Assembly (NCBI GenBank): GCA_031266555.1
Contig: JAISAU010000007.1
Coordinates: 62,001 to 126,000 of the forward strand
Direction: 5' to 3'
DNA from: Campylobacteraceae bacterium
GTDB taxonomy: Bacteria; Campylobacterota; Campylobacteria; Campylobacterales; Campylobacteraceae
Length of the DNA: 64,000 nt
This document shows, one piece after another, positions 32,022 through 39,471 of this stretch. The position numbers and the translations under genes are program-made. Under the pieces are notes generated by a model. The model searched no databases. It was given only the letters and a program-made list of their open reading frames with translations, and was not told where the DNA came from. The stretch's first letter is position 1. Each line of letters begins with the position of its first letter.

Positions 32022-33431
32022 CTAGTTTGGTTTATTTTTATTCCAACCGCCTCCAAGAGCCTTAAATAACGCGACTCCGCTACTTAAAAGAGATTGGTGA
32101 GTTTGAATAGTAGATAATTGCGCGTTTAAAAGTGAACGTTGGGCGTCCAACACTGAAAGATAATCAACATAACCGGCTTCATATTGATAATTTACAAGTT
32201 CAAGCGTACGTTTGATAGCGCCTTCATAATCTCGCGCATTTTTTAGGTTTTCTTCCAAAAACATACGAGAAGTCATAGCGTTGTAAACTTCGCTAAAAGC
32301 GTTTAAGACACTTTTTTCGTAATTTATAGCGGCTATATCTTTTGAAATTCTCGCCATTTCAACATTATTTGACGTTCTGCCAAAATCTATCAAAGGAGCG
32401 GCAAGAGTTGCTCCGGCATTCCAAGTTCTAGCACTTGATTTCAATAGATTGTCAACATCATAACTGCCAAGACCAAAAAGCGCGGAGAGACTTAAGCTTG
32501 GAAAGTAAGCCGCGCGAGCTACTCCTATCAATTCGTTAGACGATACAAGTTGTTGAAAACTTGCCTCTATGTCCGGTCTGTTTTCTATTATATTTGAAGG
32601 GATGTTACTTGGTATTGAAATATCGTTTGGCAACGCTTCAGCCGTGATGTTTTTATCTGCCAACAATCCTTGCACATCTCGTCCAAGCAATATTCCAAGA
32701 GCGCTTCCTGTAGTCGCTATTTGTTGTTCTATATTGTTTTTCGTAATTTTAGCGCTTGACAAAAGCGACTCTTGCTGCGCCAATGTGCTTTCTCTTTCAA
32801 CTCCCGCTTCAAAACGAGTTTTTGTAAGCTCAAACGTCTCTTCTCTTGTTTGAATAGTCTGTTTTACAAGCGATAACTGCTCTTTTAGCGATAAAAGCAC
32901 AAAATAGCTGTCGGCTACTCCGCTTGCCAAAGAGAGTCTAACTCCATCAGCGGACGCTTTTGAAGATAGTAGTTCCGCTTTAGCAGCAGAATTTGCGGAG
33001 GAGATTTTTCCCCATAAGTCAACTTCATAACTTAAAATCGCGCTTAACGAAAAATCATTATAAGTCGCTCTGCGTCCTTGCGAAGAGAAAGTTTCCTCAC
33101 TCGTTTGAGTTCTGGAAGCTCCTCCCTTAGCACTAAGAGTTGGGTATCTATCGGCTTCTTTTATGGCTAATGAAGCGCGAGCGAGCGAAATATTAAGTAA
33201 AGCTATCTCTAGATCTTTATTGTTTTCCAAAGCCTCTTCCACAAGCGAGTTTAAAGTCTCATCGTTATACTCTTCCCACCATTTGTCCGATATTATCGTT
33301 GTGTTATTCACATTAAATCCCAAAGAGGCTATATCGGAACTTTCTACATGTGAAGTCGTTAATTTTGGAGAAAGCGAGCAACTCGTAAATATGAGCGCGC
33401 AAGCTATCATCAGACACATTTTCTTATTCAT
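32022..33431 (-). CDS. cmeC: Outer-membrane efflux channel, CmeC/OprM type
   Basis: Outer-membrane channel of a tripartite RND multidrug pump. A lipoprotein signal (MNKKMCLMIACALIFTSC) is followed by two repeated TolC-family domains with long helices (KEADRYPTLSAKGG, LSYEVDLWGKISSANSAAKAEL, FEAGVERESTLAQQESLL). 469 residues from the chosen start. ATG 33431 is six bases after AAAGGAG; the longer frame from 33455 lacks a binding site. It overlaps the end of cmeB by eight bases. Last gene of the operon, with a terminator directly after it. Confidence 0.92.
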   Translation of the reverse strand: MNKKMCLMIACALIFTSCSLSPKLTTSHVESSDIASLGFNVNNTTIISDKWWEEYNDETLNSLVEEALENNKDLEIALLNISLARASLAIKEADRYPTLSAKGGASRTQTSEETFSSQGRRATYNDFSLSAILSYEVDLWGKISSANSAAKAELLSSKASADGVRLSLASGVADSYFVLLSLKEQLSLVKQTIQTREETFELTKTRFEAGVERESTLAQQESLLSSAKITKNNIEQQIATTGSALGILLGRDVQGLLADKNITAEALPNDISIPSNIPSNIIENRPDIEASFQQLVSSNELIGVARAAYFPSLSLSALFGLGSYDVDNLLKSSARTWNAGATLAAPLIDFGRTSNNVEMARISKDIAAINYEKSVLNAFSEVYNAMTSRMFLEENLKNARDYEGAIKRTLELVNYQYEAGYVDYLSVLDAQRSLLNAQLSTIQTHQSLLSSGVALFKALGGGWNKNKPN

Positions 33432-36400
33432 CCTCATCTCCTTTTTCGCTGTCATTTGTTTTTCTTGAAATGAATTTTTGATTTAATTTAGCAAGCCAAC
33501 TATAAAAAAGCGGTACATAAAAAATCGCGATAGTAGTTGAAGCTATCATTCCTCCGATAACGCCTGTACCTATAGCGTGACGGCTAGCAGCTCCTGCTCC
33601 CGAACTTATCGCCAAAGGAATAACGCCGAGCGTAAACGCTAAAGAGGTCATAACTATCGGTCTAAAGCGAAGTTTTGCCGCTTCCAAAGTAGCGTCAAGT
33701 ATACTTTTGCCTTTCTCTTGCGCTAACATCGCGAATTCTACAATTAAAACGGCGTTTTTAGCCGCAAGTCCTATAAGCACCAAAAGTCCTATTTGGAAAT
33801 AGATATCGTTGCTTATACCTCTTAAATAAACGGCGAGAATAGCTCCAAAAGCCGCGAATGGAACAGCGGTCACAACCGCTAAAGGCATTAACCATCTCTC
33901 ATATTGAGCCGATAAAATCAAAAAGATAAAAATAACACCGAATATAAACGCTTTAGAGCCGGAACCTTGCATCTCTTTTTCTTGATAAGAGCTTCCTATC
34001 CAACCGATATTATAACCTTCCGGCAATACTTCGTTAGCTACCTCTTCAATAGCTCTTAACGCGTCGCCTGACGTATATCCATCCGCTATATTCGCGTCGC
34101 CTGTGACTTTAGCGGCATTAAATACGTTGTATCTTTCAATTATGTCGGCTCCTACTATCTTATCAAATCTGACAAGCGAACTTAACGGCACAAGGCTGCC
34201 GCTTTGAGAGCGTACAAAAATATTGCTCGCGTCTTCTGGTTTTTCTCTGTATGAGTTATCGGCTTGAACGTTTACCCTGTAAGACCTTCCGTAAAGATCA
34301 AAATCATTTACATAGTAAGAACCGAAGCTTGACTGTAAAGCCGCGAATGCGTCGGATATGGAAACGCCGTAAGATTTGGCTTTTTCTTTGTCTATCTCTA
34401 TTTTATATTGCGGATAGTTGATATCAAAGTTTGTTCTAACGCTTGTATTTGAAAGCTCTTTTCTTGTTTTGGCTTTTTCCACTACTTGATTTGTTAATTC
34501 TTGCAAAGTTTGCATAGAACCGCCGGTTCTGTCTTGTATATACATTTCAAAACCGCTTGATATGCTAAGTCCCATAATAGCGGGCGGATTCAAGGCAACA
34601 GTTGTAGCTTCCGGTATCATAAAATTTAACTCTCTCATAAATTTATTCGCTATTGCGAAAGAGGATTGGTTTTGATTTTTACGTTCACTCCAATCTTTAA
34701 GCACAACAAACGATATACCGCTGCTTGTTCTTACCGAAAAGCTATTTAAAAGGTCAACGCCTGATAAAATTGTAACTTGTTTAACATTTTCATCATTTTT
34801 AACTATCTGTGTAAATTTACTGGCTACCTCTTTAGTTCTATCAAGCGAAGAAGCCGGCGGAAGCATAATGGCAGCCAAAACTACGCCTTTATCTTCAGGC
34901 GGTACCAACTCTGTGGGCACTTTAGTAAATAATTTATACGTTACGCCCATAAGCGCCGCGAATATCACTATAGCTATAATTCCGTGTCTTAATATAATCT
35001 TTACGCCACTTGTAAATATATTTGTTGAAGCATCAAAAACTTCGTTAAATTTCCTAATAAACCAAAACGGGCGCGGTTCTTTTCTTCTTAAAAACACCGC
35101 GCATAAAGACGGCGTCAACGTTAAAGCCACAATTCCGGATATTACAACTGAGATAACTATAGTGATTGCAAACTGTTGATACATTTGTCCGGTAAAACCG
35201 CCCATAAACGAAACAGGAATAAAAACGGCGCATAAAATCAACACTATCGCGACAACTGGACCCGTAACTTCTTGCATAGCTTGGATAGCCGCGCTCTTTA
35301 CGGATATTTTTGAATCTGAGTGAATTATTCTTTCTATATTTTCAATAACTATAATAGCGTCGTCAACAACAATTCCAATTGCTAGTATTAAGCCAAACAG
35401 CGTTAAAAGATTTATTGAAAAACCCATAGCGTACATACCGGCGAATGTGCCTATAATTGAAACTGGAACGGCTAGCATTGGTATAATAGTAGCTCTTACG
35501 TTTCCTAAGAACATGTAAACAATCAACATGACAAGTATAATAGCTTCTATGAATGTTTTCACAACTTCGTCTACAGAAATTTTAATAAAATCCGTAGTAT
35601 CGTAAGGAATTGCGTATTTCAAATGCTCGGGAAAGTTTTTACTAACTCGCTCCAAAGTTTCATCTACTAGCTCCGCCGTCTCCAAAGCGTTCGCGCCGCT
35701 TTGTAAAAATATACCTATAGCGATTACTTCTTGACCTTCAAGTCTTCCTTCTATATCATATGCTTCAATGCCAAGCTCTATACGCGCTACGTCTTTTAAT
35801 CTCAAAGTCGAGCCGTCGGAATTTGTGCGCATTATAATATCTTCAAACTCTTTTACGTTCGTAAAACGCCCGTCGGTTGTAATAGAATACGTAAATGCTT
35901 CGTTACCGCTATTTGGAGACTGGTTGAATTTGCCGGGCGCAAATTGGCTGTTTTGTTCTCTTACGGCGTTTACAACGTCATTTGGCGAAAGATTATATTT
36001 TGCCAGCATATCCGGTTTTGTCCAGATACGTATAGAATAATTTTGCCTGCTAAATAGTGCGGCGTCGCCCACGCCTTTTACTCTTTTTAATTCGTCAATT
36101 ACGTTCATTAAAGCATAATTTGCCATATATCCGGTATTGTATGTGCTATTTTCCGAATACAAAGTGACAAGCTTTAAAATAGTTGAGGAACGCTTAATTA
36201 CGGTAACGCCTCTTGCTTGAACTTCAGCGGGAAGATTAGCTAAAACTTGCTGTACACGGTTATTTACGTCAATGGTAGCTTGATCCGGATCGGTGCCGAT
36301 TTTGAAAAATATATTTATAGATAAAGCTCCGCTCGAAGATGAAGTGGACGTCATGTATAACATGTTATCAACGCCATTTATCTGTTGTTCCAAAGGCGCG

Positions 36401-36588
36401 GCTACAGTATTTGCTATAGTTTCTGCATTCGCGCCCACATAAGTCGCGAAAACCGAAACTTGCGGCGGAGTGACGTTTGGATACTCTTCAACAGCCAACT
36501 CTTCAATGGAGACAAAACCTGCTATTAATACTATTATAGAGATTACTGTCGCAAAAATAGGTCTATATATAAAAAATTTAGAAAACAT
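33424..36588 (-). CDS. cmeB: RND multidrug efflux pump, CmeB/AcrB type
   Basis: Inner-membrane proton-driven pump of the HAE-1 family that exports drugs and bile salts in Campylobacter. 1054 residues with 12 transmembrane helices and two large periplasmic loops. The proton-relay Asp pair is in LILAIGIVVDDAIIVIENIE and the essential Lys in GLAAKNAVLIVEFAMLA. It lies 9 bases after cmeA and overlaps cmeC. Expected control by the CmeR-like repressor encoded upstream. Confidence 0.95.
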   Translation of the reverse strand: MFSKFFIYRPIFATVISIIVLIAGFVSIEELAVEEYPNVTPPQVSVFATYVGANAETIANTVAAPLEQQINGVDNMLYMTSTSSSSGALSINIFFKIGTDPDQATIDVNNRVQQVLANLPAEVQARGVTVIKRSSTILKLVTLYSENSTYNTGYMANYALMNVIDELKRVKGVGDAALFSRQNYSIRIWTKPDMLAKYNLSPNDVVNAVREQNSQFAPGKFNQSPNSGNEAFTYSITTDGRFTNVKEFEDIIMRTNSDGSTLRLKDVARIELGIEAYDIEGRLEGQEVIAIGIFLQSGANALETAELVDETLERVSKNFPEHLKYAIPYDTTDFIKISVDEVVKTFIEAIILVMLIVYMFLGNVRATIIPMLAVPVSIIGTFAGMYAMGFSINLLTLFGLILAIGIVVDDAIIVIENIERIIHSDSKISVKSAAIQAMQEVTGPVVAIVLILCAVFIPVSFMGGFTGQMYQQFAITIVISVVISGIVALTLTPSLCAVFLRRKEPRPFWFIRKFNEVFDASTNIFTSGVKIILRHGIIAIVIFAALMGVTYKLFTKVPTELVPPEDKGVVLAAIMLPPASSLDRTKEVASKFTQIVKNDENVKQVTILSGVDLLNSFSVRTSSGISFVVLKDWSERKNQNQSSFAIANKFMRELNFMIPEATTVALNPPAIMGLSISSGFEMYIQDRTGGSMQTLQELTNQVVEKAKTRKELSNTSVRTNFDINYPQYKIEIDKEKAKSYGVSISDAFAALQSSFGSYYVNDFDLYGRSYRVNVQADNSYREKPEDASNIFVRSQSGSLVPLSSLVRFDKIVGADIIERYNVFNAAKVTGDANIADGYTSGDALRAIEEVANEVLPEGYNIGWIGSSYQEKEMQGSGSKAFIFGVIFIFLILSAQYERWLMPLAVVTAVPFAAFGAILAVYLRGISNDIYFQIGLLVLIGLAAKNAVLIVEFAMLAQEKGKSILDATLEAAKLRFRPIVMTSLAFTLGVIPLAISSGAGAASRHAIGTGVIGGMIASTTIAIFYVPLFYSWLAKLNQKFISRKTNDSEKGDEDE

Positions 36589-36597
36589 ATTTTACCT

Positions 36598-37794
36598 TTA
36601 TTTGGTATTCGCTGTGGCGTTAGCTTTAGACGCCATCATTTGAGCGAAAACAGCCGCGGAAACGACATTAGCGTCCGGTCTGATTTTCGTAAGGTTGTCA
36701 ATGATAATCTCTTCGTTTTCTTTCAAACCTTCCGTTACTATTATATTGCCGCCGGCTACGGTGATATCTGTTTTGATAGGAGTTTTTTTAGCTTTTCCTT
36801 CCCTCATAATGTATACGTAGTTTCCTAAAGAGTCTTGCATAATAGCTTTTTGTGGGATTGACAGCGCGTCTTTTAATACAAGTCCTTCTATAGAAACTCT
36901 TACAAAAAGACCCGGAAAAAGAATTTGATTTTTATTGTCAAACGTCGCTCTTGCTTTTATGGTTGAAGTTTGAGGATCCACCAAATTGTCTAAAAAGTCA
37001 AACGTTCCTAAATTATCGTATGTATCTCCTGCCGGAGTTATAATTTTAACGGGTAATTTGGCTTTTGCTATATTGTTCCAACTTCCTTTACTGAGCGAAT
37101 ATCTCTTTTTTAAAAAGTCAATATCGGGTATGGAAAATTCCGCGTATACGGGGTTTGTTTGAGTAACGACCGCAAGTATCGAATTTGCGGACGATGTGCC
37201 TACGTAACTTCCGATATCTTGCAAATTTTCGCTTATGCTTCCGCTTGCCGTCGCTTTAACTTTTGTATAACTCAAGTCAACCTCGGCATTTTTAAGAACG
37301 GCTTTAGCCGCTTCTACTTGCGCTTTTGTACTTTCGTAAGCATTTAAAGCTACATCTTGCTCCCTTTGGCTAACGGCGTTTTTCGCATAAAGCTGTTCTA
37401 TTCTCTGCCAATTTCTATCAGCCTCTTTCGCGGCGGCTTGAGCGACACTAAGTTGCGCTTTAGCAAGATCGTACGCCGCTTCATATTTTGATGGATCTAT
37501 CTGATAAAGTAACGTTCCTTCTTTTACAAATGAACCCTCTTGGAAAAATTTTTTCTCTAAAGTTCCCGGAACTTTCGCTACAACTTGTACTTGTTGAACG
37601 CTTTTTACCCTCGCCGGATACTCCAAAGATATGAAAATATCTTCTTTTTGCGTTTTAAAAATATTTACGGGAAGTGGCGGCATTTGTTGCGCAGAATCGG
37701 CGACTTTGTCTCCCGAACACCCTGCAAATACCAATGCGAATAAAGACATAGCGGCAATACCGCGTTTAATTTTTAAAAATTTACTAAAAACCAT
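36598..37794 (-). CDS. cmeA: Membrane fusion (periplasmic adaptor) protein, CmeA type
   Basis: Links CmeB to CmeC in the periplasm. Lipobox VFAGC near residue 26 anchors it to the inner membrane. The barrel-sandwich motif KVPGTLEKKFFQEGSFVKEGTLLYQID, the helical hairpin (QLYAKNAVSQREQDVA) and the beta-barrel region are in the usual order; 398 residues. First gene of the pump operon, with a promoter and a predicted operator in the 122-base gap before it. Confidence 0.93.
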   Translation of the reverse strand: MVFSKFLKIKRGIAAMSLFALVFAGCSGDKVADSAQQMPPLPVNIFKTQKEDIFISLEYPARVKSVQQVQVVAKVPGTLEKKFFQEGSFVKEGTLLYQIDPSKYEAAYDLAKAQLSVAQAAAKEADRNWQRIEQLYAKNAVSQREQDVALNAYESTKAQVEAAKAVLKNAEVDLSYTKVKATASGSISENLQDIGSYVGTSSANSILAVVTQTNPVYAEFSIPDIDFLKKRYSLSKGSWNNIAKAKLPVKIITPAGDTYDNLGTFDFLDNLVDPQTSTIKARATFDNKNQILFPGLFVRVSIEGLVLKDALSIPQKAIMQDSLGNYVYIMREGKAKKTPIKTDITVAGGNIIVTEGLKENEEIIIDNLTKIRPDANVVSAAVFAQMMASKANATANTK

Positions 37795-37832
37795 TTTTGT
37801 AGCTCCAATATTTATTTAAATCTAAATTGTTA

Positions 37833-37848
37833 TGTAATAGTAATTACA
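37833..37848. promoter_or_regulatory. Predicted CmeR operator upstream of cmeA
   Basis: TGTAATAGTAATTACA: a perfect inverted repeat of TGTAAT spaced by four bases. The published C. jejuni CmeR site in the same place is a 16-base inverted repeat with the same TGTAAT half site and four-base centre, as I recall it. Here it lies 39 bases before cmeA and about 10-20 bases downstream of the predicted transcription start. Confidence 0.75.
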
Positions 37849-37863
37849 TTTTTAAAGTTGACG

Positions 37864-37893
37864 ATTATATCCTTTATTTTGTCAATAAGTCAA
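37864..37893 (-). promoter_or_regulatory. Sigma-70 promoter of the cmeABC-like operon
   Basis: On the minus strand TTGACT (37888-37893), 18-base spacer and TATAAT (37864-37869). The start of transcription would fall near 37857, so a repressor on the inverted repeat at 37833-37848 would block early elongation or RNA polymerase binding. Confidence 0.7.
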
Positions 37894-37916
37894 GAGTTTA
37901 AAAGATGAAATTTGTA

Positions 37917-38585
37917 TCATTTTTTTACGACCATACCTTTCGAAAAGATTTTTACTGTTTGACGCAGTGATTTTTCCACGTCAAATATAGGACTATCGCC
38001 CGTATCCACGCCAAGTATTTCGGCAAGAAAAAACGGCTCTTTCAACAAATGTAAAAATTGATACGCCGCCAGAGTAGGGTCTTCTATGCTGATGTTTCCT
38101 CTCTCTCTCTCTCTCTCGAAATACTTCGCCACTGTGGATACGGTGCGTTTTACGGCATTCTCAAAGAAAAGTTTTCCAACTTTCGCGTTATTTTTATGAC
38201 CCTCGTATATTATTAATCTATGGAAGGCTATAGCGTCGTCCGTTGTGCTGATAGCTATAATTTTTTTACCGATATCATATAAGAAATCTTCAAAATTTTC
38301 ACTATAAGAGATAGCCGAATTTTCTATACTTGAAAAAATTTCCTCTGTTTTTTGAGATAAAACCTCAACAAAAAGAGCCTCTTTATTGCCGAAAATTTTA
38401 TACATAGTTACAAACGAACCGCCCGCTTGTTTGATTATTTTACACATTTTAGCTTTTTCAAATCCATATTGTAAAAAAACTTTAGACGCGGCGTCGATTA
38501 GCTTATCATATCTCGCTTTTTCTTTTGGACTTAATAACTCTTTCGCGGTTTTTATACATGTAGGCATAGTTTCACTTTTTTTCAT
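37917..38585 (-). CDS. cmeR: TetR-family repressor, CmeR-like, with a (GA)9 tract
   Basis: A 222-residue TetR-family regulator placed directly before cmeABC in the same direction, as in C. jejuni. The N-terminal helix-turn-helix reads AASKVFLQYGFEKAKMCKIIKQAGGSFVTMYKIFGNKEALF. The variable C-terminal ligand domain includes FERERERERG-type repeats: a stretch of nine GA units (38099-38116) encodes three Glu-Arg pairs near residues 157-162, so loss or gain of a unit would truncate the protein there. The gene overlaps the preceding lipoprotein gene by 14 bases. An ATG at 38567 is an alternative start. Confidence 0.85.
   Translation of the reverse strand: MKKSETMPTCIKTAKELLSPKEKARYDKLIDAASKVFLQYGFEKAKMCKIIKQAGGSFVTMYKIFGNKEALFVEVLSQKTEEIFSSIENSAISYSENFEDFLYDIGKKIIAISTTDDAIAFHRLIIYEGHKNNAKVGKLFFENAVKRTVSTVAKYFERERERGNISIEDPTLAAYQFLHLLKEPFFLAEILGVDTGDSPIFDVEKSLRQTVKIFSKGMVVKK
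38099..38116. repeat. (CT)9 / (GA)9 dinucleotide repeat inside cmeR
   Basis: Nine perfect CT units on the plus strand (GA on the coding strand). Slipped-strand mispairing would change the length in steps of two bases and shift the reading frame of the repressor. Confidence 0.9.
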
Positions 38586-39471
38586 AACGTTTTTTTACAA
38601 GCACTCTTTCTATATAGTTTTTGGCTTCAGGTATTGTTTGCGTTAAATACTGATAATTTTGCAAAGCTTTATCCAAATCCCATTCGTGTTCATATAAAAG
38701 TCCTAAATTGAGATATATCTCATAAGGCGTTTCATCGCTTGTTGGCTTTTTCAGCTTTTCAAAGCCCAAAATTGCCTCTTTATAACTCTTTTGTGAAACA
38801 GCTTTAAGACTTTGCTCAAAAATTTCCGTTTCACTTTTAGAGAGCTGCGTACTTTTCACCTCGTCTAATAGTCTCTCTTTTTGTACGGTTTTAATAGGAA
38901 AAACCGTACTTCTTATCTTTTTTGCCAGCAGTATTATATTTTCACGCTTAACATTATCGGCTAAAAACATATCAAAGCCAAAACTGTGTAAACGATTGTA
39001 GCAACTATCGGCAAATTCTCTACTTATTATTGGAAGTTCTTTAGTCTCATTTGTATGTATATTAAACGCTCTAACCATTACATGTATGCTATCTGTGATA
39101 TCTAAACACGACACATATACAACTCTTGGAATACGATAACACTCTCCGTTTGGAGCGCATTTTATGCTGGAGTAATCATAAAAAGGTTCATATCTGCGAT
39201 ACGCGAACCTATTGTGCGATAATAGTTCCAAATCCAAAAGATATGAAGCATTTTGTTCGCTTATTAAAAAGTCGTCCCTAATTATCTGTTCTTCAAGTTC
39301 ATTTTTTATAACTTTGCTTAAAAGCGGATACGAATTATTTTTTATATCTATTGAAATCGGCAGATTTTCTTTCACAAATGCATCGCTCGTGAAAGATACT
39401 ATTTCCACCTTTGTAGCGCATCCTGAAAATAAAACAAAAAATATGCCGACAAAAACAAGATTTTTGAACAT
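38572..39471 (-). CDS. Lipoprotein with a C-terminal TPR-like region, unknown
   Basis: A 299-residue lipoprotein (lipobox LFSGC, about residues 14-18). Residues 20-190 form a domain with four cysteines (SSIKCAPNGECYR, YVSCLDI, FADSCYN), and the last 90 residues contain TPR-like repeats (SLKAVSQKSYKEAILGFEKL, YLNLGLLYEHEWDLDKALQNY). I do not recognise the first domain. It overlaps the cmeR start by 14 bases, so the repressor may be translated from the same message. Confidence 0.65.
   Translation of the reverse strand: MFKNLVFVGIFFVLFSGCATKVEIVSFTSDAFVKENLPISIDIKNNSYPLLSKVIKNELEEQIIRDDFLISEQNASYLLDLELLSHNRFAYRRYEPFYDYSSIKCAPNGECYRIPRVVYVSCLDITDSIHVMVRAFNIHTNETKELPIISREFADSCYNRLHSFGFDMFLADNVKRENIILLAKKIRSTVFPIKTVQKERLLDEVKSTQLSKSETEIFEQSLKAVSQKSYKEAILGFEKLKKPTSDETPYEIYLNLGLLYEHEWDLDKALQNYQYLTQTIPEAKNYIERVLVKKRYEKK

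Follow-up and report, generated by a model that had tools for sequence, protein, structure and literature searches.

The cmeR-like repressor gene and its efflux locus

The window analyzed here is a 64,000-nucleotide stretch of DNA from a Campylobacteraceae genome. It contains a cmeR-like gene that lies directly upstream of co-oriented genes for a CmeABC-type adaptor, permease, and outer-membrane factor. The genes and the associated sequence elements are summarized in Table 1.

Table 1. Features of the cmeR-cmeABC locus and their positions in the window
Feature	Position	Strand	Remarks
cmeC-like outer-membrane efflux protein	32022..33455	-	
cmeB-like RND permease	33424..36588	-	best solved relative, C. 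jejuni CmeB
cmeA-like RND periplasmic adaptor	36598..37794	-	
CmeR-box-like inverted repeat TGTAATAGTAATTACA	37833..37848	.	between cmeR and cmeA
sigma70-like promoter TTGACT-18-TATAAT	37864..37893	-	11 of 12, pattern match only
cmeR-like TetR-family repressor, 222 aa	37917..38585	-	TetR_N and AefR-like C-terminal domain
(GA)9 dinucleotide tract	38100..38117	-	ERERER, E157-R162 of the repressor
299-aa lipoprotein-like gene	38572..39471	-	overlaps the repressor start codon

Both PF00440 and PF14246 scored above the cut-off in the repressor protein. CmeR was among its solved relatives by sequence (E ~5 × 10−11) as well as by fold, and NalC- and FrrA-like proteins outscored CmeR in this set. The inverted repeat TGTAATAGTAATTACA fits the CmeR-box layout (TGTAAT-N4-ATTACA) and lies in the cmeA promoter region, with the sigma70-like promoter, a pattern match only, just upstream of it. 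A CmeR-box was also present at each of the remaining five cmeR loci in the genus (in genome G012, one half-site carries a mismatch) and in several other genera. The arrangement is like that of C. jejuni, in which a TetR-type repressor is located directly upstream of cmeABC with a 16-bp CmeR-box. Domains, solved relatives, gene order, and CmeR-box thus agree with the preliminary description of the locus as a CmeR-type repressor adjoining a CmeABC-type pump. In all respects testable here the protein is, by its sequence, a CmeR orthologue, and its DNA binding and repression are predicted.

The lipoprotein-like gene, which is probably cotranscribed with the repressor gene, gave no match in Pfam and NCBIfam searches. 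When the locus of G004 (L071) was compared with that of G000 (window positions 33424 to 38585), identity was ~90% over cmeR and only ~70% from cmeA on, suggesting a recombination breakpoint near the cmeA start.

The GA tract and the predicted effect of a one-unit slip

The repeat in the repressor gene is a perfect (GA)9 that occupies nucleotides 469 to 486 of the gene, i.e., codons 157 to 162. The earlier report of nine GA units within a 222-aa CmeR-like reading frame proved exact. The units were also said to encode Glu-Arg pairs, and they do, but there are three such pairs (six residues) rather than nine. Apart from (GA)9, dinucleotide runs in the window reach 4 units at most. Under a first-order Markov model, ~1.6 × 10−7 GA/TC runs of at least 9 units are expected per window, and when the cmeR gene was resampled synonymously with the protein sequence fixed, a pure run of at least 9 units appeared in 0.5% of the resamplings. 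The tract also exceeds the published repeat-number cut-offs for calling phase-variable genes, which are at least 6 units in Campylobacter and at least 8 in Neisseria (PMC6321876, PMC5953494).

A change of one unit had been proposed to shift the frame and remove the end of the ligand/dimer domain, and both the translations and the structural model, in which the dimer helices would be lost, bear this out. With 8 units, the gene encodes a 196-aa out-of-frame product carrying 34 foreign residues, and with 10 units, an out-of-frame product of 167 aa. In the AF2 model (mean pLDDT of 76), residues 157 to 162 end a helix spanning residues 135 to 161, and three helices (170 to 181, 184 to 190, and 203 to 217) lie downstream of the tract residues. 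Translation restarting within the gene, past the purine-rich repeat, was considered and rejected, as no suitably spaced start codon exists there.

The C. jejuni repressor offers a milder parallel for such a truncation: a frameshift that truncates CmeR at residue 193 of 210 abolished DNA binding there, and the isolate with this truncation overexpresses cmeABC (PMC4488513). Since truncation near residue 162 is the more severe of the two, we infer with good support that a slip in (GA)9 would lead to loss of pump repression. Unlike a slip in a repeat, the natural cmeR frameshifts of C. jejuni isolates are ordinary indels (PMC4488513). In the literature searched, we found neither a dinucleotide tract in C. 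jejuni cmeR nor phase variation of cmeR or of other TetR efflux repressors. Drug resistance as the outcome, as put forward in the preliminary description, was an over-reading: cmeABC overexpression in C. jejuni altered susceptibility to few drugs, leaving that to most antimicrobials unchanged with the exception of chloramphenicol, so that "resistance switch" is too strong a name; the overexpression did promote the emergence of ciprofloxacin-resistant mutants (PMC4488513).

Probable slippage of GA/CT repeats in the genus

The relatives compared were Campylobacteraceae MAGs with k119 contigs, including 14 genomes of the genus, which we read as termite-gut Campylobacteraceae, the termite hosts being taken from sample codes and not from statements in the titles. 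Each species is represented by a single consensus MAG, in which variation within populations is invisible. A MutL-family search gave no match in any of the 14 genomes, with the control positive in 11 of them. (GA) tracts of at least 7 units were present in 13 of the 14 genomes, whereas among 67 genomes from the family's other genera, 11 had them; a search of the genus for (CA) tracts of at least 7 units returned none, and poly-G tracts of at least 9 were abundant. The missing MutL and the GA tracts make slippage in this genus plausible. The earlier idea that the repeat could slip is supported by this background, with MutL in 0 of 14 genomes and GA/CT slippage signatures in many genes.

Across the genus, 57 GA tracts were located, and 34 of them lie in or beside lipoprotein-type genes with a (CT)n-encoded signal peptide. 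Members of this family carry (CT)7–15 in the signal peptide (..LFKFKAFSLSLSLSLLLAFFLSFSLIGCGG) at L076, L077, and L079 (G000), L087 to L091 (G003), L095 to L100 (G004), and other loci. Their bodies contain VGGIAG-type repeats recognized by eye, and a Pfam search of them gave no match, so the family is left unnamed. Where leader and body were both readable, 6 leaders were in frame (ON) and 20 out of frame (OFF), which does not differ from the one-third expected of freely drifting frames. Three TonB-dependent receptor genes begin with an ATG-(AGAG)n stretch (7, 7, and 10 units), and all three are out of frame (L085, L128, and L129). Six lipoprotein tracts were observed no more than 119 bp from a contig end compared with 0.4 expected. 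This excess is consistent with branching of the assembly at length-variable tracts, and some of the contig-end genes have identical 5′ regions, which leave the same signature. The lipoprotein frames, the uniformly OFF receptors, and the contig-end tracts indicated that GA/CT slippage very probably operates as an ON/OFF mechanism for surface genes of the genus, and the lipoprotein family looks like an Opa-like switch that would act via its signal-peptide repeat. A (GA)7 was also seen in the coding sequence of the housekeeping gene panC of G005 (NEREREQALALS; L104:58-71), near a contig end.

The cmeR tract across species and its possible role

cmeR was found in 6 of the 14 genomes; four of these six species carry the tract, which is rudimentary in one other and decayed in the last. 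The repeat counts nine GA units in G000, G004, and G013 and five in G009, and it is missing from G011; in G012 the run is slightly shorter, Ile having taken the place of the first Glu. Two cmeR matches in G024 are separated by masked N's and were not accepted as a genuinely split gene. The segment coded by the tract is of equal length in all six cmeR genes and in more distant orthologues, and in this comparison between species (one consensus MAG for each), no OFF allele was present among the 4 tract-bearing genes. All four are in frame, compared with 6 of the 26 lipoprotein leaders (Fisher p ~0.008; about three independent lineages), and no cmeR tract lies at a contig end. The proposal that the tract acts as an actual switch is not supported by these genomes: cmeR is in frame in every species examined, the length of the coded segment is constant, the contigs continue through the tract, and one species has lost it.

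Since G013 is basal to G012, G011, and G000/G004 in the cmeR tree, the tract is probably ancestral to all of these and decayed in G011. The GAG codons of the tract were retained in 8 of 8 cases versus 8 of 18 for the other cmeR GAG codons (Fisher p ~0.008), a difference that agrees with either selection for the repeat or slippage homogenizing it. Synonymous identity over the rest of cmeR is 62 to 79% among the tract-bearing species; at this level a strong claim from cross-species conservation of the tract was discarded, and only the GAG-specific comparison is modestly significant.

The most likely reading, which we hold with moderate confidence, is that the tract is a slippage-prone loss-of-function hotspot in cmeR that is kept ON by selection and emits rare, revertible pump-derepressed cells. 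In a genus lacking MutL, one-unit slips at this tract would be far commoner than ordinary mutations, and we infer an elevated slippage rate there. Each slip, as a consequence of the sequence, would cut CmeR after helix 8 with the dimer helices gone; by analogy with C. jejuni, the cut protein should free the CmeR-boxed cmeABC promoter, and a back-slip would restore the repressor. Because cmeR appears to be held ON by selection, the expected product is a rare revertible derepressed minority, not a balanced ON/OFF switch. The identical tract length in related species is the opposite of what the freely switching tracts of the genus exhibit.

Several known systems resemble this hotspot in part. Like the simple-sequence contingency loci of Campylobacter and Neisseria, it is a coding repeat above the unit cut-off at which slippage shifts the frame, and the absence of MutL from the termite-gut genus is a further likeness; those phasomes, however, consist mostly of poly-G or longer units in surface genes (PMC6321876, PMC5953494), whereas the cmeR case involves GA units in a cytosolic efflux repressor and no OFF allele was seen among the MAGs. 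The M. tuberculosis glpK 7C-tract (Safi 2019, as described in PMC9184757) likewise combines a reversible short-tract frameshift in a mismatch repair-poor organism with a link to drug tolerance, but glpK is a metabolic gene, its tract is a homopolymer, and switching was demonstrated there. Indels in M. tuberculosis rv0678 (mmpR5) are similar in that frameshift loss of an efflux-pump repressor leads to resistance, and differ in that they are resistance mutations that were selected for, with a repeat switch forming no part of that account (PMC9184757).

The tract could instead be an evolved contingency locus, kept by selection because reversible loss of CmeR helps cells against toxic gut compounds. 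Its presence in three lineages of the genus (G000/G004, G012, and G013), the GAG retention, and the use of the same repeat type as a switch by surface genes argue for this, as does the near absence, among the 57 tracts, of other pure GA coding runs in cytosolic genes (panC being the one case). We nevertheless regard it as unlikely, given that cmeR was never OFF and never of another length and that the tract is absent in G011 and degenerate in G009. Moreover, homogenization by slippage could also account for the codon retention, sister species are not independent, and with the synonymous identity between species given above, plain inheritance could explain much of the tract. We likewise doubt that gut symbionts have evolved a dinucleotide-slippage switch, reversible by nature, in the repressor of a multidrug pump, providing a standing minority with a constitutive pump beside the genus-wide GA/CT and poly-G phasome.

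Least probable to us is that the tract is a passenger, a charged helix end that happens to use GAG and AGA codons, with no selected role and with slips too rare to matter. In other genera this position is rich in E, R, and K without a repeat and aligns without an indel, AGA is the commonest Arg codon near the tract, and the GA7 in panC of one species is comparable. Against chance codon usage stand the low probability of the run given the protein and its codons (P ~0.005), the retention of GAG in the tract above that in the rest of the gene, a unit number beyond both the Campylobacter and the Neisseria cut-offs (at least 6 and at least 8), and the missing MutL.

Loss of an efflux repressor usually comes about by irreversible mutation. 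If such a gene contains a slippery tract, as in the hotspot reading favored above, the loss would become frequent and revertible and thus amount to heritable bet-hedging of the pump. The extensive GA/CT phasome of lipoproteins and TonB receptors in this uncultured termite-gut genus is arguably the stronger result, and termite-gut metagenomic reads could address the cmeR tract and the phasome together.

The repeat-bearing genes and elements of the genus have further peculiarities. In G004, different lipoprotein bodies share one 5′ region through the CT tract (L097 end, L098 end, and L101 start), and in G008, a single lipoprotein body occurs behind either of two distinct upstream regions, the tract having 12 units in one case and 11 in the other (L114 and L115 starts); these joins may have arisen by recent gene conversion or by recombination resembling that of a shufflon. 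Across species, there are also recurring intergenic (CT)n elements whose flanks are conserved (L080, L082, L086, L092, L122, and L125); they read TTTAAGG-(CT)n and then an inverted repeat resembling TTGATAA..TTATCAT.
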